NCBI RefSeq assembly: GCF_902805515.1
Contig: NZ_CADCTE010000001.1
Coordinates: 62,001-126,000 of the forward strand
Direction of reading: 5' to 3'
Length of the DNA stretch: 64,000 nucleotides
DNA from: an uncultured Arthrobacter sp.
GTDB lineage: Bacteria; Actinomycetota; Actinomycetes; Actinomycetales; Micrococcaceae
Every line of letters starts with the position of its first letter. Position 1 is the first letter of the stretch. Under the pieces are notes generated by a model that worked only from the letters and a program-made list of their open reading frames with translations, ran no database searches and was not told the DNA's origin. The position numbers were made by a program, and so were the translations under genes. Positions 6,915 to 41,033 of this stretch are shown in pieces.

Positions 6915-7410
6915 CTAGCCCAGTTGTTCGTCGACGGCCCGCATAAAGGCGGCGACGAGGGAACGTCGGTCGGCCCGCAGCCAGGCCAGCGCCAAGACGG
7001 TCGGCGGCAGGCCGTCAACCGGACGGATGCTGACCTCGGAACGGCTGTAGAGATGCGCGTTGCCTTCGGACAGCAGCACCACCCCGAGCCCGGAGGCGAC
7101 CGCCTCGAAGACGGCATCGGGTGTCTCGGCGGTCGCGCCGATGACCGCAGGCCTGCCGTTCCGCTCCGGTGCGGCGATCCAAAAGTCCCGCAGGGTTCCG
7201 GCCTCGGGTGGCAGGGCAATGATCGGTTCCTCGAGCAGGTCGGCGAAGGCAACCCGTTCCTGCCGTGCCAGAGGATGGTCGGACGGCAGCGCGACACACC
7301 GCCGTTCCCGGACGATGGGGAGGACGTCAAGATCGTCGGAGGGCGCGGGCAGCCACAGGAAGGCGACGTCGCTGGTTCCGTCGTCGAGCCCGGCGCCACG
7401 GCGCGCCCGC
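6915..7410 (-). pseudogene. 5'-truncated LysR-type regulator remnant
   Basis: The minus strand encodes about 165 residues of a LysR substrate-binding domain with no start codon and no helix-turn-helix. Reading from about 7410 it shows LDDGTSDVAFLWLPAPSDD, then CVALPSDHPLARQERVAF, then FEAVASGLGVVLLSEG and ends in FMRAVDEQLG before a TAG at 6915-6917. A full LysR protein is about 300 residues, so the N-terminal half is missing. The break coincides with the stop codon of the neighbouring fusion gene, so a deletion or rearrangement probably removed the front of the regulator. The remaining frame is intact, suggesting the event is fairly recent. Confidence 0.75.
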
Positions 7411-9162
7411 TCAGCTGTCGAGCACGAGGTCTTCCGTGGGGCGGGCGCAGCAGATCAGTGCCTGGCTGTCGGGTGGCGTTTCCAGGGGATCAGGCTGGTA
7501 GGCCACCCTCCCCGAGATGACCGCCGTGAGGCAGGTGTGGCACACCCCGGTGCGGCAGGACCACCGGGTGGGCACGTCGCAGGCCTCGGCGAGTTCGAGC
7601 AGGGACGTGTCGCCCGCGCGCCACCGGGCGGTGAGGCCGCTTCGGGCGAACGTCACCGCAGGCCCGGTGCCGGGCTCGCCGGAGGGCTGGTGCGGGGGCA
7701 CGGTGGCGGAATCAACAAGCCCGGGATTGATCGGCGGCAGGGTGCTGAACAGTTCGGAGTAGATCGACCCGGCGTCGACGCCGAGGTCGGTGAGCGCATC
7801 CGTCATGCTGCCGATGAAGGCGGGCGGACCGCAGAGATAGGCCGCCGCGCCCGCCGGAACCCCCAGGGCCCGAAGCTGGTCGACGGTCGGCCGGCCGCTG
7901 AAGGAGTCCGCCACGGGAGCCGTCGCCCGGGTGTAGAAGATGGCGCTGCGGGCGTGGGCAAGCCGGTTCAGATGTCCCCGCACCTCCCCGGCGAACACGA
8001 GCTCGCCGGGGTTCCGGGCGACGTGGATCCACCAGATCTCCCTGTCGCTGCCGGTGCGGGCGAACTCCTGGAGCATCGGCACCAGCGGGGTCGCGCCGAC
8101 CCCGGCCGAGATGAGGAGTACCGGACCGGTTCCGGCGTGGAGCCGAAACTGACCGCGGGGGGCGGCAACATCGATGGTCCCGCCGACCAGCACACCCTCG
8201 TGGAGGTAGCGGCTCACCAACCCGTGTTCCTCCTGCCTGACACTGATCCGGTAGGTGTGCGGGTTGGGGGCGTCCGAAATGGAGTAGCTGCGGACCGACA
8301 CCGCCTCGTTCACGGAAACGCGGAGGGTGAGGTACTGGCCGGGGATGAACGGTCCGAGTGGAACGTCGTCGCCCGCGTGAAGGTACACGGAGGTGATGGT
8401 CGGGGTTTCGGGAACGGTCTTCGTGATCGTCATCGGCCGGAATCCGCTCCAGCCGGGCTCCTCGACGGGTGCCCCGGTCACGGTGGCCTTTGCCAGATCG
8501 GTGTCCAGCAGGTCCTGGAAGGACTGCTGCCAGCCGGGGCTCAGTGCCGGAATGTCAACGGCCTTCCGCAGTGCGGCCTGCGAGCGGTTCGGCAGGTACA
8601 GCAGCGCGTCGGTCTCCGCGACCGTCAGCCGGTGGGGCCCGTTGAGCGTTCGAATGATCGGGTCACCGGGCCGGACTTCGCCCTCGGTGATGACCCGCAG
8701 GTAAAACCCGGGACGGCGGTGGTCCACCAGGAGTGCGGGCATCCGCGGTTCCTCGAGCCGCATGCCCACGCGGAAGCAGGTGACGCGGGGCTGGGTCACC
8801 TCGAATTCCGCCTCCCCAATGCGGTAGCGGTCCCCGATGCACACTTCGTCGTCGGGCAGCCCGTCGATGGTGAAATTCTCACCGAAGGAGCCGGGCGTTA
8901 GATCGCCGCGGCCGAGGAAGCTGGACCAGTGCTCGTAGGACTGCCGCTGGTAGACCAGCACCGCCCGCTGCTCACCGCCGTGCCCGTGCAGGTCGCCCTG
9001 GCCGTCACCGTCGATATTGAGCCTGCGGACCATCAGCGGCCGCTCCACCGGGCTCTTGTAGACGCCGGTGTGCACCGTCTTTCCCTGCCAGGAGACGCCC
9101 TTGGGGACTCCAACGTTCAGTGACACCAGCCTGCCGCAGGCCATGCCCTCGACCTCCGTCAT
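7411..9162 (-). CDS. MOSC / ferredoxin-reductase / 2Fe-2S ferredoxin fusion oxidoreductase
   Basis: This 583-residue protein has three modules. Residues about 8-215 are a YiiM-like MOSC domain with the molybdenum-cofactor cysteine in EVTQPRVTCFRVG (Cys129). Residues about 225-470 are an FAD/NAD(P)H reductase unit (VRSYSISDAP for FAD, LLISAGVGATPLVPML for the nucleotide). The C-terminus is a plant-type ferredoxin with cysteines in WSCRTGVCHTC and ICCARP. It therefore contains a complete electron path from NAD(P)H through FAD and 2Fe-2S to Moco, as expected for a reductase of N-hydroxylated or sulfoxide-type compounds; the real substrate is unknown. The ATG at 9162 is preceded at seven bases by TAGGCT, so the start is probably leaderless. 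Confidence 0.88.
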   Translation of the reverse strand: MTEVEGMACGRLVSLNVGVPKGVSWQGKTVHTGVYKSPVERPLMVRRLNIDGDGQGDLHGHGGEQRAVLVYQRQSYEHWSSFLGRGDLTPGSFGENFTIDGLPDDEVCIGDRYRIGEAEFEVTQPRVTCFRVGMRLEEPRMPALLVDHRRPGFYLRVITEGEVRPGDPIIRTLNGPHRLTVAETDALLYLPNRSQAALRKAVDIPALSPGWQQSFQDLLDTDLAKATVTGAPVEEPGWSGFRPMTITKTVPETPTITSVYLHAGDDVPLGPFIPGQYLTLRVSVNEAVSVRSYSISDAPNPHTYRISVRQEEHGLVSRYLHEGVLVGGTIDVAAPRGQFRLHAGTGPVLLISAGVGATPLVPMLQEFARTGSDREIWWIHVARNPGELVFAGEVRGHLNRLAHARSAIFYTRATAPVADSFSGRPTVDQLRALGVPAGAAAYLCGPPAFIGSMTDALTDLGVDAGSIYSELFSTLPPINPGLVDSATVPPHQPSGEPGTGPAVTFARSGLTARWRAGDTSLLELAEACDVPTRWSCRTGVCHTCLTAVISGRVAYQPDPLETPPDSQALICCARPTEDLVLDS

Positions 9163-9350
9163 GGCGCCAAGCCTACGTCGGGCATCGACCGGTCACCAGA
9201 GCCACCCACAGGGGGACGGCCGGTGCTGCGGCCCGGGCCGCGCGGTTCCGCGGAAGATCGGTGCTCGTTGCTGCGGCCGCGGCGGTAGATTACGGGAATC
9301 CGTCACGAAGGGCGCCGCCCGAGCAGGAGGCCTGGGCCGCAGCCGGCCCG

Positions 9351-10106
9351 TCAGGGGTCAAGCAGCCCCCGCAGCCACAGGTCCCGGTTCTTGGCCACGT
9401 AGGCGGCCGCCCGGCGCCAGTGGTCTCCATGGCCGGCACGGTACATCGACCCCCACGGTTCCCGCCCGGTGAGGTGCGAGCGGTGCAGCAGGGCGTGCAT
9501 GGCAGCGGCCCGCTCCGCCATGACGCGGGGGAGCTCGCCGCGGAGCTCCTCCCCGGCGCCGTATCCGTCGATGAAGGCGCGCAGCCGTGCCGCGGCCCGG
9601 GCGGGTTCCTGGTGGTAATCCGAGAGGGTGAAGGCCTGTGCCGCGTAGGCGAGATCCCACAGCCGGGTGCTGGGCCCAGCGCCGTCCCAGTCGATGAAGA
9701 CCCAGCGCTCGCCGATGATGAGGTTCCAGGGAGCCAGGTCGTTGTGGCACACCAGATCGGCGGCGGCGGGCGGAATGAGGACATCCCATCGGCTGGCCTG
9801 GCTGCTGTCGAACTCCCGGCTCGCGTCGTGGATCCGGCGGACCATCCGGCCGACTCGGGCCAGTTCCTCAAATGTCAGGGGAGGGAGCTCCAGGGCGGGA
9901 GTGCCGGGGATGAATTCGATGACCTGCCGCCCGGAGTCGTCCCGCCCGAAGGCCTGCGGTACATCGACGCCTGCCGTTCGCACCGCGTCCAGAAAGGCGT
10001 GCACGGCGGGGGTTGCGGCGGTCCAGGGTTTTCGGACGGTCGCTCCAATCCGCACGACGTCCGGGGTAGCGTTGCCCCCGGTGAGCGGATGTTCCTCGGT
10101 GTCCAT
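9351..10106 (-). CDS. Phosphotransferase of the aminoglycoside/choline kinase fold
   Basis: This 251-residue enzyme of the APH family has the catalytic loop CHNDLAPWNL (His, Asp and Asn in place) and the metal-binding segment FIDWDGAGP, both intact. Such proteins phosphorylate hydroxyls of aminoglycosides, macrolides, homoserine, choline or unknown metabolites; the sequence alone does not settle the substrate. The ATG at 10106 sits six bases after TAGTCT with no Shine-Dalgarno, so it is probably leaderless. The neighbours give no clear pathway. Confidence 0.85.
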   Translation of the reverse strand: MDTEEHPLTGGNATPDVVRIGATVRKPWTAATPAVHAFLDAVRTAGVDVPQAFGRDDSGRQVIEFIPGTPALELPPLTFEELARVGRMVRRIHDASREFDSSQASRWDVLIPPAAADLVCHNDLAPWNLIIGERWVFIDWDGAGPSTRLWDLAYAAQAFTLSDYHQEPARAAARLRAFIDGYGAGEELRGELPRVMAERAAAMHALLHRSHLTGREPWGSMYRAGHGDHWRRAAAYVAKNRDLWLRGLLDP

Positions 10107-10170
10107 CTCGTCAGACTAGTCGGCGGCGGCCGCCCGTGCTGCTGCGCCCGGGTCCAGCGCCGCGCGTGGC

Positions 10171-10725
10171 TCAATTCGTCGTGCGGTCCGGAGATCCTGA
10201 TCCCGCAACGACCTCTTCGATCCTGTCGAGAGTGATCGTCCGGCCCGCCACTTCGACCCGCCCATCAGCGGCTTGAAGGGGGAGGACCACCACCTCGGGC
10301 CCAAGGCTGTTGAACTTGTCCCACCTGCTCGGTGCGAAGCGGGCGGCACCGGCGGAAGGCTGCAGGTCAATCCTGGTCGGGTTCCCTCGGTGGATGGTCG
10401 TTGTCCCAAGAACCGGCTGGAAGGTCAGGGCACCCGCTGTCGGCGTCACTAGGCCATAGTTCCACTTTCGAAAACGCTCACCTTTGGGGGCCTCCGGGAG
10501 CCGGATAGAACACGCGAACTGCCCTCGTTCCACGACCCTCCGCAGGGACCGGCGCTGCCAGCGGACCACGAATGCCATAACGATCGCGAGAGTGACGGTG
10601 AAGAAGGCCGCCGACAGCGCCGCATGGGCCGGCGTCTCCCCGGACGCCACCTTTAACAGGAAGTAGAAGACACCGCCGGCTAGGAAAATCAGGGCGTAAT
10701 GCAACCGACGGCGGTTTTTGGTCAT
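10171..10725 (-). CDS. Hypothetical membrane protein, two helices
   Basis: This protein of about 184 residues has two N-terminal hydrophobic segments (LIFLAGGVFYFLLKV and FTVTLAIVMAFVV) followed by a cytoplasmic domain of about 110 residues beginning near RWQRRSLRRVVERG. I do not recognise the C-terminal domain. The ATG at 10725 is preferred over one at 10752 because it directly precedes MTKNRRRLHY and the first helix, and because TACAGT lies five bases upstream as a likely -10 of a leaderless transcript. Confidence 0.7.
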   Translation of the reverse strand: MTKNRRRLHYALIFLAGGVFYFLLKVASGETPAHAALSAAFFTVTLAIVMAFVVRWQRRSLRRVVERGQFACSIRLPEAPKGERFRKWNYGLVTPTAGALTFQPVLGTTTIHRGNPTRIDLQPSAGAARFAPSRWDKFNSLGPEVVVLPLQAADGRVEVAGRTITLDRIEEVVAGSGSPDRTTN

Positions 10726-30809: not shown

Positions 30810-31592
30810 TCAGTCCCGGGCGGCACGGGCCGCCAGCCCAGCGGCGTATCCGGCCGAATAGGCCTCTTCGGAACCCTGCCGGAACATGTCCTCTGCCGCC
30901 GGACGCACCAAACTCGCTGCGCCGGGGGTGGAGTCCAGGTCGGCGTCGTCGACCACGAAGCGCGAAAGTCCGCGGACGACGGCGACGGGGACCCCTTCGG
31001 CCTTTCCCTTGACCAGGTCGGCGGCGGCGGCAATTTCATCGCCGACCGCCGGAACCGATGCCTTAAGCAGGTGGCCTGAGCGGTCGCGGGTCCCGCGGAG
31101 GTCCTCAAGCACCTGCACCCCTGCCGCCCCGATGGCCGCATCCGTCTGGCCCTGCCGCCAGGGCCGGCCGAGCGTATCGGCCATGATGACGCCGAGCCGC
31201 AGCCCGGTGGCCTTCCTGAGGCTGCGGCACAGCCGCCGGGCCGAGGCGTCCGGGTCGACGGGCAGCAGCAGGACGGTGCCCGCCGCCGTATTGCTGGTAT
31301 CGACTCCCGCCGCCGCCGCGATGATCCCGTTGCGGTTCTCAACAATGCGCGTCACACCGCCGGGGTGGGTCCTGGTGGCGACGACCCTCACGGTTTCCCG
31401 GGTGATTGCCTCCTCCCGGTCCTCCGCCCGCACCAGGCGGCCCTCGGCTTTGGAGAAGATCTTCGACGACACCACGAGGATGTCGCCGTTCCGCAGCGTC
31501 CCGGCCGAGACCTCCCGGATCACTTCCCCCAGATCCGTACCCTCGGTGATTTCCCCGATTCCTTGGAGCGCGAAGGCCCGTAGCTGATCCAT
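30810..31592 (-). CDS. cofE: Coenzyme F420-0:L-glutamate ligase (CofE, N-terminal half of FbiB)
   Basis: This enzyme of about 260 residues adds glutamates to F420-0 with GTP. Conserved family text includes GIGEITEGTDLGEVI, VVSSKIFSKAEGR, THPGGVTRIVENRNGIIAAAA and ADTLGRPWRQGQTDAAIG. Mycobacterial FbiB has an extra C-terminal flavin nitroreductase domain that reduces dehydro-F420-0; it is absent here and the protein ends soon after the ligase fold. The ATG at 31592 lies two bases after the upstream oxidoreductase stop codon, with GAGG about ten bases before it; GTG codons at 31598 and 31601 are alternatives. Coupled translation with an F420-dependent enzyme fits its role. Confidence 0.93.
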   Translation of the reverse strand: MDQLRAFALQGIGEITEGTDLGEVIREVSAGTLRNGDILVVSSKIFSKAEGRLVRAEDREEAITRETVRVVATRTHPGGVTRIVENRNGIIAAAAGVDTSNTAAGTVLLLPVDPDASARRLCRSLRKATGLRLGVIMADTLGRPWRQGQTDAAIGAAGVQVLEDLRGTRDRSGHLLKASVPAVGDEIAAAADLVKGKAEGVPVAVVRGLSRFVVDDADLDSTPGAASLVRPAAEDMFRQGSEEAYSAGYAAGLAARAARD

Positions 31593-31594
31593 GC

Positions 31595-32599
31595 TCACCA
31601 CCTCAGGGCGGGAAGGACGCTGCGGGAGAACTCATCGATCCACTCCCGCTGGTTGCGGCCGACGTTGTGGAGATAAATGGTGTCGAAGCCGAGGTCAACG
31701 AACCGCTGGATCTGCGCGCGGTGGACGTCGGGATCCGCCGAGATCACCATGCGCCCCTCAAAGTCCTCGGGCCGGACCAGTTTGGCCATCTGCTCGAGTT
31801 CAAAGGGCGAGCGGATGTCACCCTTCGGGAACTTCATGCCGCCGTTGGGCCACTCCGTCATCGCGTTGGCCAGGGCGGTCTCGTCGGTGTCGGCCCAGCT
31901 GAGGTGGAGCTGGAGGACCTTCTTCAGGGTGTCCGGGTCCTTGCCCGCCTCGGCCGCCCCCGCATGGAACCGCTCGAACAGCGACTCGATTTTCTCGAGC
32001 GGCGCGCCGACGGTGATCAGCCCGTCGGCGTGTTTGCCTGCCCGCTTCGCAGTCACGGGGCCGGCCGTCGCGACGTGGATTTCCGGCGGAACCTCGGGCA
32101 TGGTCCACAGCCGGGTCGATTCCATCTTGTAGTACTGACCGTTGTGGCGGACATCCCTGCCGGCCAGGGACGCCGTGAACAACTTCGTGATGATGTCGAT
32201 CGCCTCGAACATGCGGTTGATCCGCTCGGGGACCTCCGGCCAGTACCCGCCCACGATGTGCTCGTTCAGGGCCTCGCCTGAGCCCAGCCCGAGCCAGTGC
32301 CTGCCCGGATACATGGCGGCAAGGGTCGCCGAGGCCTGCGCCACCATCGCCGGGTGCCATCGGAACGTGGGCGTGGTGACGCCCGGTCCGAAGCCGCCGC
32401 GGGTGCGTTCACCCACGGCGGCCAGGACGTTCCACACGAACGAGGACTGCCCCTGGGCCGGCACCCAGGGCTGGAAATGATCGGCCGCCATCACCCCGCT
32501 GAAGCCTCTTTCCTCGGCGTAGGCGGCCAGCGCGACCGCCTCGGTCGGGTGGAACTGTTCGAGCATGGCGGCGTACCCGATGTTCGACGAGGTGGTCAT
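31595..32599 (-). CDS. F420-dependent LLM-class oxidoreductase, G6PDH (FGD-like) family
   Basis: This 334-residue enzyme of the luciferase-like monooxygenase class belongs to the group that includes F420-dependent glucose-6-phosphate dehydrogenase. Recognisable text is IGYAAMLEQFHPTEAVALAA, ADHFQPWVPAQGQSSFVWNV, GLGSGEALNEHI and LGFDTIYLHNVGRNQ. It either reduces F420 from a sugar phosphate or alcohol, or uses F420H2 to reduce a substrate. The ATG at 32599 is preferred over an ATG 28 codons upstream because homologous text begins here. It is coupled to cofE, a direct link of cofactor synthesis to use. Confidence 0.9.
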   Translation of the reverse strand: MTTSSNIGYAAMLEQFHPTEAVALAAYAEERGFSGVMAADHFQPWVPAQGQSSFVWNVLAAVGERTRGGFGPGVTTPTFRWHPAMVAQASATLAAMYPGRHWLGLGSGEALNEHIVGGYWPEVPERINRMFEAIDIITKLFTASLAGRDVRHNGQYYKMESTRLWTMPEVPPEIHVATAGPVTAKRAGKHADGLITVGAPLEKIESLFERFHAGAAEAGKDPDTLKKVLQLHLSWADTDETALANAMTEWPNGGMKFPKGDIRSPFELEQMAKLVRPEDFEGRMVISADPDVHRAQIQRFVDLGFDTIYLHNVGRNQREWIDEFSRSVLPALRW

Positions 32600-32649
32600 G
32601 GCAGTTTCTCTTTCACGGTAGAGGGAGGTGTGCCGGCAGGGGGCCGGTG

Positions 32650-33534
32650 CTAGCGGCGTGCCAGGGGGGCCAGTTCGCGCCACTCGGCGAGCGGGAGCCC
32701 CGGCTGCCCATTCATCACGTGCAGGGCCACATGGTCGGCACCTGCTGCGTGGTGTTCGGCGATGCGGTCCGCGATCCGATCCACACTGCCCCAGGCGACG
32801 GTGGCATCGATCAGCCGGTCGCTTCCGCCCGGGACGAGATCGGCATCGGTGAAGCCGAGGCGGCGCAGGTTGGCCTGGTAGGCCGGGAACCCGATAAACA
32901 TGCCCACACCGCGGCGGGCGATGGCGCGTGCGCGAGCGGGGTCTTCCTCGAGAACGACGCCGAGGTGCGGCGCGATCAACGCCTCCGCACCCAGGAGGTC
33001 CCGGTATCCCGCATTCGATTCGGCGGTGACCAGGAAGGGGTGGATACCCGCGGTGCGCCGGCCGGCGAGGTCGACCATGCGGGGGCCAAGGGCTCCGAGC
33101 AGGCGCTGGGAGGGCGGAAGGGCCGGTGCCGCGCCGTCGAGCAGGTCGAGGTACTTGTTCATCTCATTGATCGGAGTGGTGAAGTCCTTGCCGACGGCTG
33201 CGGCCGAGTGGGGATTGCTGACTCCGAACCCGCTCATCAGCCGGGGCCCGAACTTGCCAGTGAGGCGGTCGTGCTCGGCCGGGGCGACGTCGGCGTCCGC
33301 GCCCCAGATGCTCATGACACCGAAGGCGACGGCAGCCTCACTGCCGGCGTCGAGCATCCGCTCCGCTGCGTTCCACATGCCTGGGCCTCCCGCACCGACA
33401 AGCCAGATGGCACCCCAGCCCTGGGAGTGGAGCTCGGCTGCCACCTCGGTTGCCGCTGCTGGCTCGATGCCGCTGAGCTCAATGCTCCACATGCCAACCC
33501 GGCCGAGTGCTACGGGGGCGTTCTGATCATTCAT
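32650..33534 (-). CDS. F420-dependent LLM-class oxidoreductase, MSMEG_4141-like family
   Basis: This LLM oxidoreductase of about 294 residues begins VALGRVGMWSIELSGIEPAA and contains WGAIWLVGAGGPGMWNAAER and HHAAGADHVALHVMNGQPG, typical of the family called F420-dependent MSMEG_4141-type. Its substrate is unknown. It precedes the FGD-like enzyme on the same strand, so the order LLM - LLM - cofE may be one operon. The ATG at 33534 is chosen because the longer frame begins in low-complexity arginine-rich text. Direct repeats of CATACGAA lie upstream. Confidence 0.85.
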   Translation of the reverse strand: MNDQNAPVALGRVGMWSIELSGIEPAAATEVAAELHSQGWGAIWLVGAGGPGMWNAAERMLDAGSEAAVAFGVMSIWGADADVAPAEHDRLTGKFGPRLMSGFGVSNPHSAAAVGKDFTTPINEMNKYLDLLDGAAPALPPSQRLLGALGPRMVDLAGRRTAGIHPFLVTAESNAGYRDLLGAEALIAPHLGVVLEEDPARARAIARRGVGMFIGFPAYQANLRRLGFTDADLVPGGSDRLIDATVAWGSVDRIADRIAEHHAAGADHVALHVMNGQPGLPLAEWRELAPLARR

Positions 33535-33645
33535 GGGGTCTCCATCGTCCGGACCATGGCTGGGCGCGCTGCCTGCCAGGTGTTTCATTCGTATGCGTTT
33601 CGTATGTGCAAGGGCGGAGGAGTGTCCTCCGAGGCGCCGCCGGCG

Positions 33646-33682
33646 CACCCCACGGCCGCGGTTTCCGGAAGGCCGTGGGGTG
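33646..33682 (-). terminator. Terminator of the SDR gene
   Basis: CACCCCACGGCC at 33646-33657 pairs perfectly with GGCCGTGGGGTG at 33671-33682 around a 13-base loop, just downstream of the stop codon of the minus-strand SDR gene ending at 33699. Confidence 0.65.
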
Positions 33683-34448: not shown

Positions 34449-34779
34449 TGGGTTCCTCAGGGGGAGTGGCCGTGGCCATGATTTTGTATCGTACGGTACG
34501 TATAACGAGCTGTGAATGAGGATATTCCCAATTCTGGACAGTTTGTTCTAAAAAAATGAGATCCAGTGTGTGGCTGCCGTGGGTGGAGTCACGGCGCGCC
34601 CCGGCGGGCCGTGACTCGAGTCATATTATGTTCCATGCGGTACGTATATCCCGTTTTAGGTGCTATTCTCGGAGCACCTCCATCGGCGCGTCTGCCGATC
34701 GGGTGGCCTCGATCTGGGCCACGGGTGGGCCAACTCCAGCGCTTCAAGCGAAGCGTTCCCTGCGCCCCCTGGACGGACA
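34449..34779. promoter_or_regulatory. Divergent promoter region of the SDR and F420-0 transporter genes
   Basis: No gene is seen. CGTACGGTACG at 34490-34500 is an inverted repeat. CGGTACGTATA occurs both at 34494-34504 and at 34638-34648. Between them GAGTCACGGC (34586-34595) pairs with GCCGTGACTC (34608-34617), with inner CGCC/GGCG extending the stem, and TGACTCGAGTCA (34612-34623) is a perfect palindrome. These look like operators or a terminator and probably coordinate the two divergent genes. Confidence 0.5.
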
Positions 34780-35781
34780 ATGTTTTCCACCCCCCGATAC
34801 CTCGCGACTGCCGGTGCCCTGATCCTCCTTGCCGTCGGCTGCGCCGGCCCCTCGCAGACGGCGTCCTCCCTGATGGAGCCCCCGGGCGGCACGGCCGCCG
34901 CAGGATATCCGGTGACCATCGACAACTGCGGCACCCCGGTCACCTTCGAGTCGGCGCCCGAGCGCGTCGTCACCATCAAGTCGACCGCCACCGAGATGCT
35001 GCTCAGCCTCGGCCTCGGAAGCACAATCGTCGGCAGCGCGTTCGCCGACGGGCCGCTGCCCGACGCGCATGCTGACGTCCGGATTCCGGTGCTGTCCGAC
35101 CAGCTTCCGGGGACCGAAGCCACGCTGGCCCTGGAACCGGACTTCGTCTACGGGGGTTGGGAGTCGAACTTCTCCGCCGAGGGAGCCGGGGACCGCGCGT
35201 CCCTTGAGGCACTCGGCGTTCGGACGTACGTCTCGCCGGCCGCCTGCAAGGCTGAGGGCTACAAGCCCGATCCACTGACCTTCGACTCGATCTTCGACGA
35301 CATCACGGAGATGGGCCGCATCTTTGGCGTGGAGGCACGGGCCGACCTGGTCGTCTCGCAGGAGGCGGACAAGTTGGCGTCGATCACTGCGGACGGGTCG
35401 GGCATGTCCGCCCTGTGGTACAGCTCGGGGGAGAAAACCCCGTACGTGGGAGCAGGCACGGGAGCACCCCAGCTGCTGATGGAGACCGTGGGCCTGCGGA
35501 ACGTGGCCGCGGACATCGACGACAGCTGGAGCGCCATGTCCTGGGAGGCGGTGGCAGCGGGCGATCCCGACGTGATCGTCCTCGTTGACGCGGCCTGGAA
35601 CACCGCCCAGCAGAAGATCGACCACCTCACCGCCAACCCGGCCACGGCTCAGCTCCGCGCCGTCCGGGAGTCCCGCTACCTCACCGTTCCCTTCGCGGGC
35701 GGCGAAGCGGGCGTGCGAAGCGTCGACACGGCACTGGCCCTTGAGGAACAGCTGCGTCAGCTCGACCCACTCGATCCGTGA
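34780..35781 (+). CDS. Substrate-binding lipoprotein of the proposed F420-0 ABC transporter
   Basis: This extracytoplasmic protein of about 333 residues has the lipobox LAVGC at Cys20 and a FecB/BtuF-like two-domain fold (VTIDNCGTPVTFESAPERVV, LSLGLGSTIVGSA, VPFAGGEAGVRSVDTAL). It matches the family named putative F420-0 ABC transporter binding protein because of its constant location with cofC and cofD. The name rests on gene neighbourhood; transport of F420-0 is unproven. The ATG at 34780 directly precedes the signal peptide. The next three genes overlap each other by four bases in turn. Confidence 0.85.
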   Translation: MFSTPRYLATAGALILLAVGCAGPSQTASSLMEPPGGTAAAGYPVTIDNCGTPVTFESAPERVVTIKSTATEMLLSLGLGSTIVGSAFADGPLPDAHADVRIPVLSDQLPGTEATLALEPDFVYGGWESNFSAEGAGDRASLEALGVRTYVSPAACKAEGYKPDPLTFDSIFDDITEMGRIFGVEARADLVVSQEADKLASITADGSGMSALWYSSGEKTPYVGAGTGAPQLLMETVGLRNVAADIDDSWSAMSWEAVAAGDPDVIVLVDAAWNTAQQKIDHLTANPATAQLRAVRESRYLTVPFAGGEAGVRSVDTALALEEQLRQLDPLDP

Positions 35782-36893
35782 GCCTGCAGCACCGCACCCG
35801 CCCTTGGGACGGCGCACCGCCCGCCGGCCGGCCGTTCGCCGCAGTGCGCAGGGCAGGGGCACGCCCGGCCGCGCTGTGGCCGCTGGCACTCGGAGGCGTG
35901 CTCGCCGTCTCCGTGGTGCTTGCGCTGACCATCGGGCCGGCCGACATCTCACCGCTCCAGGCCGCACGCTCGGCCGCCGGCCGTGTCGCCGGCGCCGGCA
36001 CCGGCACCTCTCCGGCAGGTCGTGACGCGGCGGGCCTGTCGTCGGTGCAGGAGGCCATCCTCTGGCAGTTGAGGCTGCCGCGGCTGCTGACTGCCGCCTT
36101 CGTCGGCGCCGGGCTCGCCCTCAGCGGCGCCGTGATGCAGGCCCTCACGCGGAACCCTCTTGCGGATCCCTACCTCCTGGGACTGAGTTCGGGGGCTTCC
36201 CTGGGTGCCGTGTCGGTCCTGCTGCTCGGTGCCGCCGTCGTGCTTCCCCTCGCGGCGTTCGCCGGGGCGATGGCAGCGCTGGTCCTTACCCTGACCCTGG
36301 CCGCCGCGGCCGGGTCGATCAGCCCCTCCCGTACCGTCCTCGCCGGCCTCGCCGTCTCCTCGGCCGCCTCGGCCCTGACCTCCTTCGTCATCTTCTTCTC
36401 CGCCAAGGGGGATTCCTACCGGGAGGTTCTGAACTGGCTCCTCGGCTCATTGGCCGGCAGCACCTGGACCTCGGTGGCGATCACCGCGGCCGCGTTCCTG
36501 CTCGCGGGGGTCCCGATTCTGCTTACGGGAGGACTGCTCGATGGATTCTCCTTCGGGGACAACGCCGCCGGCGCCCTCGGGCTCAACGTCCCGGTGCTGC
36601 GCTGGGTGCTTCTCGCCGGAACGGCGGTGCTGACCGGGGCAATGGTCTCGGTCAGTGGCTCCATCGGCTTCGTGGGGCTGATTCTTCCCCACGCCGTCCG
36701 GCTGCTGACCGGGGCGCGGCACCGGGTCCTGCTGCCGGCCGTGGCACTGGCCGGGGCGGTCTTCCTGGTCTGGGCCGACACCCTCGCCCGCACGGTGTTC
36801 GAGCCGCGGGAGATCCCGGTGGGGATCGTTACCGCTCTGATCGGCGCACCGGTTTTCGCCGTGCTGCTGTGGCGGCGGAAGACACAGACATGA
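35778..36893 (+). CDS. Permease of the proposed F420-0 ABC transporter
   Basis: This 371-residue FecCD-type permease (BtuC fold) has the family signature LRLPRLLTAAFVGAGLALSG, then PLADPYLLGLSSGASLGA and GSIGFVGLILPHAVRLLTGA, consistent with about ten membrane helices. It differs from iron permeases mainly by context, between a binding protein and an ATPase of the F420-0 type. The GTG start overlaps the binding-protein stop by four bases. Direction, import or export of F420-0 or a related deazaflavin, is not established. Confidence 0.85.
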   Translation: MSLQHRTRPWDGAPPAGRPFAAVRRAGARPAALWPLALGGVLAVSVVLALTIGPADISPLQAARSAAGRVAGAGTGTSPAGRDAAGLSSVQEAILWQLRLPRLLTAAFVGAGLALSGAVMQALTRNPLADPYLLGLSSGASLGAVSVLLLGAAVVLPLAAFAGAMAALVLTLTLAAAAGSISPSRTVLAGLAVSSAASALTSFVIFFSAKGDSYREVLNWLLGSLAGSTWTSVAITAAAFLLAGVPILLTGGLLDGFSFGDNAAGALGLNVPVLRWVLLAGTAVLTGAMVSVSGSIGFVGLILPHAVRLLTGARHRVLLPAVALAGAVFLVWADTLARTVFEPREIPVGIVTALIGAPVFAVLLWRRKTQT

Positions 36894-37699
36894 GCACGGC
36901 AGGGCAGGCTGCCGCCGGGGAGCTCCGGACGCACGGGCTCGCCTACAGCGCGGGCCGGCGCCTGATCCTCTCCGGGATCGAATGCGCTCTTCCCGGCTCC
37001 GCCGTCACGGGCCTGCTCGGGCCCAACGGGGCCGGCAAGTCCTCCCTCCTCCGCCTCATCGCGGCGGTCCTCAAGCCGACGGCCGGGCAGGTCAGCCTCG
37101 CCGGAACGGATCTGCGGAGCCTGAAGCGGAAGGCGCGGGCGCAGCACGTTGCCTTCGTTGACCAGCAGGTCGACGCCGACGTCCCCCTGAGCGTTTCCGA
37201 CGCCGTCCTGGTCGGGCGCCTGCCCTACCGGCCGGCGTACGCCGCGGAAACCAGCCGGGATGAGTTCATTGTGCAGCGCAGTCTGGCCCAGGTGGGCCTT
37301 GAAGGATTCGGCGCACGGCGGCTCGACAGTCTCTCGGGCGGGGAGCGCCAGCGGGTGCATATCGCCCGCGCACTGGCCCAGGAGACCGGGGTGTTGCTGC
37401 TCGACGAACCGACGAACCATCTCGACCTCAGCGCCCAGGCCGGGGTGCTCGGACTGCTCCGGGGGCTCGCGCGCGGCGGGTCCACTGTCGTCGCGGCGTT
37501 GCATGACATCAACCTCACGGCGGCGTACTGCGACCACGTCGTTGTCCTGGCCGGGGGACGGGTGGTCGCCAGCGGAGAAACCGCCGGCACGCTCACGCCC
37601 GAGCTGATCCGCTCCGTGTACGGAGTGCCCGCGGTGCGGCTCGACAACCCCCTGACGGGGCGTCCGGTGTTCGCCTTCGGCGGGACGGATCAGCCATGA
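36890..37699 (+). CDS. ATP-binding protein of the proposed F420-0 ABC transporter
   Basis: This FepC-like ATPase of about 269 residues has Walker A GPNGAGKSSLLRL, the signature LSGGERQRVHIARAL, Walker B VLLLDEPTNHLDLS and the switch ALHDINL. It ends with LDNPLTGRPVFAFGG, a late region matching the F420-0-type ATPases. The ATG overlaps the permease stop by four bases and its own stop overlaps cofC by four. The tight coupling of transport and F420 biosynthesis genes is the main evidence for its specificity. Confidence 0.87.
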   Translation: MSTAGQAAAGELRTHGLAYSAGRRLILSGIECALPGSAVTGLLGPNGAGKSSLLRLIAAVLKPTAGQVSLAGTDLRSLKRKARAQHVAFVDQQVDADVPLSVSDAVLVGRLPYRPAYAAETSRDEFIVQRSLAQVGLEGFGARRLDSLSGGERQRVHIARALAQETGVLLLDEPTNHLDLSAQAGVLGLLRGLARGGSTVVAALHDINLTAAYCDHVVVLAGGRVVASGETAGTLTPELIRSVYGVPAVRLDNPLTGRPVFAFGGTDQP

Positions 37700-38307
37700 C
37701 CTGGAACCTCGTCATCCCGGTGAAAGGGCTCCATCTTGCCAAGTCACGCCTGCGGCGGAAGCTTGGCAGCGTCGAGGACCTCGCCCTGGCCTTTGCCCTC
37801 GATACCCTTGCGGCCGCCCAGGAGAGCCGCACCGTACAAAGGGTCATCCTGGTCAGCAACGACGCGCGGATGCGGGCCGCCGCCCCGCCAGGGGTGCTGA
37901 TCGTCGATGACCCCGGCATGGGCCTGAATCCCGCGGTTGCGGCGGGCCTCCGCCGGGCAGGGCCCGGCCCGGCCGCGGTGGCGACCGCCGACCTGCCGGG
38001 CGTTCGAGCCGCCGACTTCGACCGGGTCCTCGTCGCGGCCGGACGGTCACGGCGGGCGATGGTCACGGACCACTCCGGCAGGGGAACCACCCTGCTGGCC
38101 GGCCGGGTGCCGGACCTCGACCCAAAGTTCGGGCCGGGCTCCCGTCAGCGGCACGAAGGGAGCGGTCACACCCTGCTGGATGTGCCGCAGTCCTCCCCGC
38201 TGCGCTGGGATGTCGACGAGCTGACCGATCTCACCTTCCTGCTCCGGCGTGGTGTCGGGGCACATACGGAACGGGTCGCCGCCGCCCGGGGGCTGCCGGC
38301 CGCCTAG
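37696..38307 (+). CDS. cofC: 2-phospho-L-lactate/PEP guanylyltransferase (CofC, FbiD)
   Basis: This 203-residue enzyme activates a phosphorylated C3 acid with GTP to give the side-chain donor of F420. Family text is VIPVKGLHLAKSRLRRKLG, VILVSNDARMR, PGMGLNPAVAAGL and ATADLPGV, then GTTLL with KFGPGS further on. Actinobacterial enzymes generally use PEP, giving dehydro-F420-0, while archaeal ones use 2-phospholactate; which applies here cannot be read from sequence. It is the last gene of the transporter run and converges with cofD, with a four-base 3' overlap. Confidence 0.9.
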   Translation: MTWNLVIPVKGLHLAKSRLRRKLGSVEDLALAFALDTLAAAQESRTVQRVILVSNDARMRAAAPPGVLIVDDPGMGLNPAVAAGLRRAGPGPAAVATADLPGVRAADFDRVLVAAGRSRRAMVTDHSGRGTTLLAGRVPDLDPKFGPGSRQRHEGSGHTLLDVPQSSPLRWDVDELTDLTFLLRRGVGAHTERVAAARGLPAA

Positions 38308-39287
38308 GCCGTCCGTGTTCCAGCGGCGAGGTTCAGAGCCTTGGCCACGATGGCCGCCGATGACTCATCGGAGGTCATCCACAACGGGACGGCCCGTGCC
38401 GCCATCCCGGCAGCGTGCAGCCGCCCCAGTGCCCCGGCGTCGGTGGAGTCCACGAGCCAGCCGTCGAGGACACCGCCAGCCGGTCGGGATCCATAGTGCA
38501 GGCCGACGGCGGCGGCAGAGACCTCCACGCCAATGGTCCGCAGACACAGCTCGGCCATGCCCCGCACCGCGGCGCCGCCGATGATCGGTGACACCCCGAT
38601 GACCGGCGCCGCGGTGTCACGCAGCGCCTCGCCCATGCCGGGCAGCGTGAGGATGGTTCCGATGGACACCACGGGATTCGACGGGGCGAACAGCACGACG
38701 TCGGCCGAGGCGACCGCCTCGAGCGCGGCCGGGGCGGCAGCCGCGGACTCGAGACCCTGCTGAACGAACCGGCGGGTCGGGATATTGCCCCGGTGGCGCA
38801 CCCACCACTCCTCGAAGTGGATGAACCGGGTCTTCCCGTCCTCGTCGGCCACCTCGACGTTCGTCTCCACCTCGTCATCGGTGGCCGGCAGCAGCCGCAC
38901 TCCGAGGTTCCAGCGCGCCGCCAGGCGTTGAGTGGCTTCGGTGAGGGAAAGCCCTTCACGCAGCAGGGCGGTGCGGGCGATGTGGGTCCCCAGGTCGAGG
39001 TCCCCCAAAGTGAACCAGGGCCAGCCCACCCCGTACGCGGTCAGTTCGGCGCTGACCCGTTCCGACTCGCCCGCCCTGCCCCAGCCGCGCTCGGTGTCGT
39101 TCGCCCCGCCGAGGGAATACATCAGGGAGTCGAGGTCGGGACAGACCCGCAGTCCCGTGAGCCAGAGGTCGTCCCCGGTGTTGGCGATGACAGTGATATC
39201 CAGGTCCATCGCGGCGGCAAGGGTCCGGGCGCCACGGACGAACCGCGCTCCACCGACCCCGCCCGCGAGGATCGTCACTCTTGTCAT
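38304..39287 (-). CDS. cofD: 2-phospho-L-lactate transferase (CofD, FbiA)
   Basis: This 327-residue enzyme transfers the activated side chain from the CofC product to FO, giving (dehydro-)F420-0. Family motifs are ILAGGVGGARFVRGARTLA, VIANTGDDLWLTGLRVCPD and the late segment GVSPIIGGAAVRGMAELCLR. GGAGGCAGGCA precedes the ATG. It faces cofC tail to tail with a four-base overlap. A second promoter-like TACTAT lies about 40 bases upstream. FO synthase (fbiC) is not found in this window and must be elsewhere. Confidence 0.93.
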   Translation of the reverse strand: MTRVTILAGGVGGARFVRGARTLAAAMDLDITVIANTGDDLWLTGLRVCPDLDSLMYSLGGANDTERGWGRAGESERVSAELTAYGVGWPWFTLGDLDLGTHIARTALLREGLSLTEATQRLAARWNLGVRLLPATDDEVETNVEVADEDGKTRFIHFEEWWVRHRGNIPTRRFVQQGLESAAAAPAALEAVASADVVLFAPSNPVVSIGTILTLPGMGEALRDTAAPVIGVSPIIGGAAVRGMAELCLRTIGVEVSAAAVGLHYGSRPAGGVLDGWLVDSTDAGALGRLHAAGMAARAVPLWMTSDESSAAIVAKALNLAAGTRTA

Positions 39288-40409: not shown

Positions 40410-40442
40410 ATGGTGACGGACGGCAGGAGGGGAGTGGGTGTC

Positions 40443-41033
40443 ATGGCGGTCCGAGGCAGGCCCCGGGAGTTCGACGTAGACCAGGCATTGGAGCGCGCCG
40501 TCGACGTGTTCTGGCGCCAGGGATACGAGGGAACCACCCTCGAGGACCTCACGACGGCGATGAGCATCAGCAGGCCAAGCCTGTATGCCGCCTTCGGCAA
40601 CAAGGAGGACACCTTCAGGCTGGCCGTCGTCCGGTATGCCCAGGTCGAATTGGCCTACGTTGACGAGGCGCTGGCGAAGCCGACCGCCCGGGAGGTCGCA
40701 GCCCACTACCTGCGCAAGAACGTTGAGGCAATCACCCTGCCGGGACGGCCGCCGGGGTGCCTTTCGATCCAGGGCGGACTCTCGAGCCATCCCCAGGACC
40801 AGCGGATCGTGGACTTCCTGACCTCCAGCCGCAGTGCGGGGGAGCAACGATTCGTCGAGCGCTTCCAGGAGGCCATCGAAGCCGGTGACCTGTCCGCCGG
40901 CGAGGACCCGACTGATCTCGCACGGTATCTGGCCTCCGTTACGGCGGGCCTCGCGGTTCAGGCCGCCGGCGGCGCCGGACGGGCCGCACTCATGAAGGTC
41001 GCTGAGCGCGCCCTGTCCGCCTTTCCCGGCTAG
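40443..41033 (+). CDS. TetR/AcrR family transcriptional regulator
   Basis: This regulator of about 196 residues begins MAVRGRPREFDVDQALERAV and has the TetR helix-turn-helix VFWRQGYEGTTLEDLTTAMS, SRPSLYAAFGNKEDTF, followed by an all-helical ligand-binding domain with the conserved GCLSIQGGLSSHPQDQ segment. AGGAGGGGAG lies 12 bases upstream; a GTG at 40434 nearer to it is an alternative start. Its target is unknown; palindromes just upstream suggest autoregulation. Confidence 0.88.
   Translation: MAVRGRPREFDVDQALERAVDVFWRQGYEGTTLEDLTTAMSISRPSLYAAFGNKEDTFRLAVVRYAQVELAYVDEALAKPTAREVAAHYLRKNVEAITLPGRPPGCLSIQGGLSSHPQDQRIVDFLTSSRSAGEQRFVERFQEAIEAGDLSAGEDPTDLARYLASVTAGLAVQAAGGAGRAALMKVAERALSAFPG

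Follow-up and report, generated by a model that had tools for sequence, protein, structure and literature searches.

What does a BtuCDF-like importer carry when its genes are locked to those that build the side chain of the cofactor F420? The question is raised by a stretch of 64,000 nucleotides (nt) from an uncultured Arthrobacter sp. (contig NZ_CADCTE010000001.1, positions 62,001 to 126,000; the whole stretch is called the window here), in which the genes for the binding protein, permease and ATPase of an ATP-binding cassette (ABC) transporter run into cofC and converge on cofD. The initial annotation proposed that F420-0, FO or a precursor crosses the membrane at this point. The gene content of related genomes makes it highly probable that the system is a deazaflavin importer for F420 salvage, and FO is the likely substrate needed in the window genome. 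In many members of the family, the transporter gene is also preceded by a leader element whose helices covary.

Gene content and the substrate of the transporter

A four-family profile search was run on an order-level sample of 396 genomes that were at least 90% complete. At E ≤ 1e-40, the TIGR03868 binding protein was found in 133 genomes (97 over the family cut-off), cofH in 59 (29 over cut-off) and cofD in 145 (143 over cut-off); cofE was found in 237 at E ≤ 1e-30 (184 over cut-off). The binding protein was tallied over its cut-off, and cofD, cofE and FO synthase (cofH) by these E-value sets. All 97 transporter genomes contain cofE (E ≤ 1e-30), and 92 of them yielded no FO synthase. Class A, to which the window belongs, has cofD and no FO synthase (56 of 97); class B has neither (36 of 97). 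The missing FO synthase suggests that the physiological reason for the transporter is salvage and its direction import, both of which had been left open. It also gives the proposed name, which the initial annotation held to rest only on neighbourhood, a basis outside the neighbourhood.

Among the 145 genomes with cofD, 56 have the transporter only, 53 FO synthase only, five both and 31 neither over cut-off, a near exclusion with a Fisher p of 4e-12 that is uncorrected for kinship. Near homologues outside the family (140–235 bits) served as a control: the 32 genomes that have them showed no association with cofE and, within the genomes that contain cofD, a positive association with FO synthase. 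A cofG test of 76 genomes gave no match at E ≤ 1e-15 in the 42 class-A genomes tested (of 56) or in 28 cofD genomes with neither system (see below), and cofG was over cut-off in all five genomes with the full set and in the positive control (G132). A divergent FbiC type was observed at loci L245–L252 (family f18, genus g40) and L254–L257: its cofH half lies well under the TIGR03551 cut-off, and its cofG half is over cut-off in the four tested (G289, G316, G339 and G190).

CofD couples the product of CofC to FO, which yields F420-0, as a passage of PMC8498797 describes. A genome with CofC, CofD and CofE and no FO synthase would thus need FO, and one with CofE alone would need F420-0 or F420. 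In a cofC test of 77 genomes, a match was found in all 21 class-A genomes tested (20 over cut-off), in all 20 of the tested genomes with neither system (19 over cut-off) and over cut-off in none of the 36 class-B genomes, one of which gave a weak match of 38.8 bits. A second set of 49 named genomes (from 50 of 80 loci) was picked by likeness to the window and by hand, so that its class shares are biased; cofD and cofC are each present in 42, and the same seven lack both. cofH was found in two of the 49, A. hankyongi and, under cut-off, Cellulomonas sp. RIT-PI-Y. The window genome itself contains cofC, cofD and cofE, and a search for FO synthase turned up neither cofG (E ≤ 1e-3) nor cofH (E ≤ 10). 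The retention of cofC and cofD points to FO rather than F420-0. Passages of two papers place FO outside cells: it is typically present in culture supernatants of producers (PMC11917521) and was found in that of Mycetohabitans (P.) rhizoxinica (PMC11104420).

It could instead be argued that the transporter carries F420-0 only in all members, and that CofC and CofD of class A use FO that diffuses in. Such a reading agrees with the 36 of 97 transporter genomes that have cofE and no cofD, none with cofC over cut-off, and with 26 genomes that have cofD and cofE and live with neither FO synthase nor the transporter. It agrees as well with a binding-protein tree (FastTree, 101 rows) that leaves the classes unseparated: they do cluster (15 changes, 33 in shuffles), yet they interleave, and the starred branches force at least seven changes for class A and at least six for class B. 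However, CofC and CofD would then idle in 56 of 97 genomes, yet the two genes are retained or lost as a pair (both in 42 of the 49 named genomes, neither in the other seven), and in 25 of 100 and 37 of 80 loci cofD comes after the ATPase gene. Transport of F420-0 alone is therefore considered unlikely. Because the needs of classes A and B differ and their binding proteins nevertheless interleave, the binding protein probably recognises the deazaflavin-ribityl core common to FO and F420-0.

Several observations weigh against import of FO as a general account. The window genome assembly is 91% complete and in 207 contigs; this incompleteness is answered by the two nearest relatives, Arthrobacter sp. 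MSA 4-2 and A. crusticola, which are also class A, with cofC and cofD and without cofH. Transporter, cofD and FO synthase are all present in five of the 97 genomes (G190, G270, G289, G316 and G339), and the exclusion loses strength when genera are scored by majority (Fisher p 0.013). When seven lower-scoring members are counted as transporters, 28 of the 145 cofD genomes are still left with neither system; two of these (G173 and G273) have cofD under cut-off and no cofE, which leaves 26 firm genomes with cofD and cofE. From these 26 it follows that a second uptake route for FO, or free diffusion, apparently exists. The interleaved classes also indicate that the binding protein itself does not distinguish FO from F420-0. 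The genomes with neither system are concentrated, 22 of the 28 being in one family (code f16; loci L141–L154 and L160 are among them). A cofE>cofC><cofD cluster without a transporter over cut-off and without FO synthase was seen in the window's own family (locus L158, genome G137, 7062–10527).

In a cell unable to make FO, the run would thus form the salvage half of F420 metabolism. A membrane-anchored lipoprotein would capture extracellular deazaflavin, which the BtuCD-type permease and the ATPase would import. CofD, using the activated phospho-acid made by CofC, and then CofE would convert FO to F420 for the neighbouring luciferase-like monooxygenase (LLM) oxidoreductases. Where relatives have lost cofC and cofD, transporters of this family would have to bring in F420-0 or F420.

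Family, fold and gene order

The binding-protein gene (34780–35781, plus strand, as are the three that follow; ATG start; TIGR03868) is overlapped at GTGA by the permease gene (35778–36893, GTG start; TIGR03869 and Pfam FecCD), which is overlapped at ATGA by the ATPase gene (36890–37699, ATG start, with an alternative longer GTG start at 36869; Pfam ABC_tran). Another ATGA overlap leads into cofC/fbiD (37696–38307, ATG start; TIGR03552, 117.6 bits against a cut-off of 105). cofC meets cofD/fbiA, the gene for the FO-consuming enzyme (38304–39287, minus strand; TIGR01819, 337.9 bits against 257.45), tail to tail in a 4-nt overlap, CTAG. Open reading frames and sequence bear out the tight run described in the initial annotation, with all four junctions, that of cofC and cofD included, at 4 nt, and NCBIfam and Pfam profiles agree with its gene families.

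The suggestion that the system was undescribed did not hold, as NCBIfam already has the cassette as hypothetical equivalogs TIGR03868, TIGR03869 and TIGR03873, under the name "putative F420-0 ABC transporter". What is new here is what the transporter must carry; the family itself was already named, after F420-0 because the founder genomes kept cofE alone. The binding protein (433.9 against 392.4 bits) and the permease (471.6 against 437.35 bits) are above their cut-offs. A point against full membership comes from the ATPase: TIGR03873 is its best-scoring family, yet the score, taken from the longer start at 36869, lies below the cut-off (336.1 against 372.4 bits), and equivalog membership is for this reason not claimed. 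In the open-licence literature, no paper was found that names an "F420-0 ABC transporter" or TIGR03868, and none on this transporter was among the titles listed.

A binding protein of the class III fold, a FecCD permease and an ABC ATPase together make up a type II (BtuCD-F-like) importer, and binding-protein-dependent systems of this class are importers. The proposed tie between a BtuCDF-like importer and F420 biosynthesis is supported. The lipobox read from the sequence marks the binding protein as a lipoprotein, and Cys21 is conserved in at least 90% of the 41 sequences compared. Its AlphaFold model (mean predicted local distance difference test score 88.3) matches Protein Data Bank (PDB) entry 4MLZ, a periplasmic binding protein of Jonesia denitrificans whose title gives no function, with a Z of 40.1, a root-mean-square deviation of 1.7 and 49–50% identity across the whole domain (phmmer E 1.5e-91). 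The 4MLZ protein most likely belongs to the same family. The next structural matches are well below it (4n01, unassigned, Z 31.3; 5cr9, with a hydroxamate-type title, Z 29.9). Since a close relative has been solved, and FO and F420 fluoresce, the binding protein could soon be put to the test.

The same fold and the same Pfam families are found in importers of siderophores, haem and cobalamin, and these supply the next-best profiles; the ATPase reaches 228.9 bits against a haem-ATPase cut-off of 261. An ordinary importer of this kind might therefore adjoin the F420 genes by chance. However, the binding protein is far under the listed cut-offs for siderophore and B12 systems (BtuF 24.4 against 234 bits, EitA 127 against 640), no cobalamin riboswitch or other Rfam match was found at the loci searched, and cofE accompanies the family in 97 of 97 genomes, while the 32 near-homologue genomes show neither the cofE link nor the exclusion of FO synthase. 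A chance neighbour is accordingly very improbable. The vitamin B12 importer BtuCDF was considered separately and rejected, as BtuC (242.2 against 461 and 236 against 334 bits) fails like BtuF and Rfam gave no match.

How far the gene order is conserved was surveyed, as the initial annotation had proposed, in 80 named loci and a second set of 100 transporter loci, 12 of which are common to both; the order was called by similarity to the window proteins, so that misses are likely. The exact order transporter>cofC><cofD did not prove widespread, being found in two of the 80 named loci, those of the two nearest relatives (L161 and L162), and in none of the 100. Transporter>cofD does recur (37 of 80 and 25 of 100 loci, raw counts). 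The link of the transporter to F420 side-chain genes is thus recurrent and the exact order of the window lineage-specific. The whole cluster is present in both nearest relatives at 89–100% protein identity. Five congeners of the window genome within the 396-genome sample gave no match to the binding protein, cofD, cofE or cofH, which suggests that the cluster was gained horizontally. In Paraoerskovia sediminicola (L223 and L234), the chromosome record has the transporter locus close to each end and carries cofD and cofC twice, either through duplication or through assembly overlap.

A structured leader RNA

In many transporter genes, the leader holds a 55-nt element, a three-way junction with two like hexaloops, behind a −10-like box; the initial annotation makes no mention of it. 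The common element was found by listing the leaders of 67 named relatives. The P1 helix (for example GACC/GGUC or GGAUC/GAUCC) is followed by hairpins P2 and P3, with six-base loops closed by Y-G. Both loops have the consensus GG(A/C)(U/C)NU; among the six-base loops, U6 is present in 62 of 62 and 64 of 66, and G2 in 52 of 62 and 59 of 66. In a plain MAFFT alignment of 28 leaders, P1 and P2 came out of register, and this version was set aside. In an alignment of 12 leaders of equal length (A6), which were hand-picked, partly for plain hairpins, so that the counts lean to the structure, 94.1% of cells are paired against 79.9% when shuffled and 22–48% in slid controls, and 28 cells have changed on both sides against 8.3 when shuffled; RNAalifold gave the same fold without constraint. 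A model of the motif (R1) was searched over 81 and 100 sources, and 90 loci with hits were selected for a second search. The 91 re-search matches at E ≤ 0.01 formed an alignment fitted to the structure (A7), in which 15 of 17 pairs change on both sides, with 253 such cells against 80.3 shuffled and 1–33 slid. The innermost P1 pair is unpaired in 37 of the 89 rows with letters. G-U pairs outnumber C-A 85 to 16 without this pair and 85 to 46 with it, in an alignment that leans to the structure; such an excess is expected of RNA and not of a DNA palindrome. By this covariation, the element is almost certainly a real structured RNA of the family.

A second model, R2, was applied to a 100-locus set that includes four lower-scoring members and excludes the window. 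It matched at E ≤ 0.01 in 62 loci, always on the strand of the gene and 166–674 nt upstream of the TIGR03868 domain. Training rows account for 32 of these, another 10 repeat a training row exactly, and the other 20 were held out and differ from all of them (33–57 bits); by class, matches were found in 38 of 56 A, 21 of 39 B and three of five full loci. The remaining 38 loci, without a match at this threshold, count against the element as a general feature of the family. Upstream of the gene in the named loci, R2 matched in 60 of 80 at E ≤ 0.01; 54 of the 60 are training loci, and of the other six, two (L223 and L234) come from one genome. Six of the 20 named loci without a match have at most 150 nt of contig upstream. 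Five leaders missed by R2 were found by R1 at E ≤ 0.01 (L053, L088, L197, L198 and L202), and recall depends on the model and the filters.

The motif searches covered loci rather than whole genomes, and R2 gave no match at E ≤ 0.01 in 30 control loci (552,795 nt), which hold FO synthase, low-scoring homologues and cofD from genomes without the transporter, as well as three lower-scoring or split members; the best E was 0.025, at a site within the cofE frame of L158. Upstream of FO synthase, none of 20 loci matched at the same threshold (216,275 nt; best E 0.045). Two FO-synthase places are common to both sets, and the 50 control loci gave no match in all. Two stray candidates were set aside: a second copy at L204 (15469–15530), which lies away from the gene and has no −10-like box, and one at L192 (5184–5257, minus strand; R1 30.1 bits), also away from the transporter gene and without an R2 match.

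A TANNNT box lies 5–10 nt before the motif in 60 named relatives, a loose pattern counted without a shuffled control. Because a −10-like box lies upstream, the leader is taken to be transcribed, and as an mRNA leader it would control the transporter gene in cis in many members. The same position, directly behind the box, is where operators lie; two like hairpins suit a protein dimer, and between the window motif and the start codon there is no terminator-like site. The motif may thus be a DNA operator pair or a protein-binding RNA site and not a riboswitch, a serious contender that still falls short of probable. The DNA form of this explanation is opposed by the 15 of 17 pairs kept through two-sided change, by covariation of the outer helix P1, by the ratio of G-U to C-A (85 to 16, or 85 to 46 with the innermost P1 pair) and by loop conservation on a single strand (U6 in 62 of 62 and in 64 of 66).

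A conserved, structured 5' leader of a metabolite gene, as found here, is also what marks riboswitches. It is a real possibility, though short of probable, that the leader is a deazaflavin riboswitch for FO, F420-0 or F420 and not an RNA bound by protein or of another kind. The simplest candidates for the sensed molecule would be F420-0 and F420, since the leader is found in transporter genomes with and without cofD and both should contain these compounds. A fourth hairpin behind the motif is mildly enriched (at least six pairs in 57% of 58 leaders, 29% in shuffles). Pairing between a loop and the Shine-Dalgarno sequence, judged by eye, is possible in Agromyces and not in Isoptericola or Occultella; a simple hairpin rule, applied without a shuffled control and with some misassigned cases, finds a pair in 51 of 70 leaders.

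At Rfam 15 gathering scores, no family matched in the window between 28000 and 44000 or in seven representative loci (146,444 nt), and a permissive scan of the leader region gave 11.7 bits at best (E 3.8). A cobalamin or FMN (flavin mononucleotide) riboswitch was rejected for lack of an Rfam match. Within the open-licence literature, no paper was found on an F420 riboswitch or on an orphan riboswitch with F420; among the papers listed on related subjects, the one that mentions riboswitches, PMC12855090, speaks in that passage of the FMN class.

The window promoter region and comparison with known systems

In the window, a divergent copy of the twin-hexaloop leader lies at 34677–34731 (plus strand; P2 34682–34699, loop GCGUCU; P3 34703–34722, loop CGAUCU), with a weak P1 and a −10-like box, TATTCT (34664–34669, plus strand), 7 nt before it. 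R2 scored it at 24.0 bits (34680–34725; E 3.3e-5) when the 331-nt intergenic region only was searched. In a 1.5-Mb search it was weak (E 0.15), and with R1 its E was 0.45. The minimum free energy (MFE) fold holds both hairpins in the window and L161; in L162 it holds P3 only and the centroid both. The fold z is −3.2 in the window and −1.3 and −1.4 in L161 and L162. The copy is probably a divergent member of the leader family, of which we are fairly sure. A first MFE hairpin (34659–34678) overlaps the −10-like box and was discarded as part of the RNA, and one-base indels in L162 argue against a coding leader, a reading that was rejected. No terminator-like site was found between the window motif and the start codon. 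Among the window, L161 and L162, conservation is higher in the 5' region of the binding-protein gene than in the DNA that separates two operator-like direct repeats further upstream.

These repeats lie on the plus strand at 34481–34504 (copy 1, ending in CGGTACGTATA) and 34625–34648 (copy 2, close to where the −35 of the transporter promoter is expected), and L161 and L162 retain both. In the window, CGGTACGTATA is present twice, against 0.10 expected from shuffles; genome-wide, the 14-mer with at most two mismatches has four sites, against five for a reversed control, and copy 1 is the sole exact site. A regulator bound at the paired CGGTACGTATA sites might exert extra control in the window lineage, though this is doubtful. 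The binder might be, as a guess, the product of the TetR-type gene at 40410–41033 (plus strand; Pfam TetR_N), which is downstream of the cluster also in L161 and L162. On the other side of the divergent promoter region lie a short-chain dehydrogenase/reductase gene, two genes for F420-dependent LLM oxidoreductases (32650–33648, TIGR03620 family, 274.9 bits against 219.8; 31595–32683, TIGR03557 family, 282.6 bits against 210.4) and cofE (30810–31601; TIGR01916, 224.1 bits against 180.65), the last three on the minus strand. CofE is a single-domain gamma-glutamyl ligase of 263 amino acids that lacks the C-terminal half of the FbiB-type profile (449 positions). If F420 is made by way of dehydro-F420-0, the reduction of this compound must happen elsewhere.

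If FO is the ligand, F420 would be a shared good among actinobacteria, built on FO leaked by producers and used by many Micrococcales. This would be a vitamin-like cross-feeding that surveys of gene content in F420 producers could misread. We know of no deazaflavin riboswitch, and this would be the first class; a deazaflavin-sensing leader would add a new ligand class, provide a biosensor for F420 engineering and signal to salvage-dependent actinobacteria when to import the cofactor precursor.

Among the closest known systems is the NCBIfam family itself (TIGR03868, TIGR03869 and TIGR03873), which the window system joins by the scores of binding protein and permease, by the three-gene cassette and by cofE in 97 of 97 genomes. 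It departs from the family name, which says F420-0, as FO fits better where 56 of 97 genomes keep cofD without FO synthase; to our knowledge, the leader RNA is absent from the family description. BtuCDF and FhuBCD-type (type II) importers share the fold of the binding protein, the FecCD permease and the ABC ATPase, but differ in genetic setting and inferred substrate, and the window has no cobalamin riboswitch. An ABC transporter also adjoins the 3PG-F420 cluster of M. rhizoxinica, for which a membrane route for the cofactor was suggested in the relevant passage of PMC8498797. Compared by description only, this transporter differs in being suggested there as an exporter and in a cluster that includes fbiC; a passage of PMC11104420 labels it "involved in heavy metal resistance".

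The leader resembles the FMN and cobalamin riboswitches of Rfam in being a structured leader upstream of a cofactor importer. The architecture of those riboswitches differs from a P1 helix with two hexaloop hairpins. Two adjacent hairpins with six-base loops are also a feature of ANTAR-responsive dual-hexaloop RNAs, whose loops require A1 and G4. An ANTAR site was rejected, as A1 is present in five of 62 and two of 66 six-base loops and G4 in none of either, and unlike the ANTAR RNAs, the leader RNA here has a P1 helix that joins the two hairpins.

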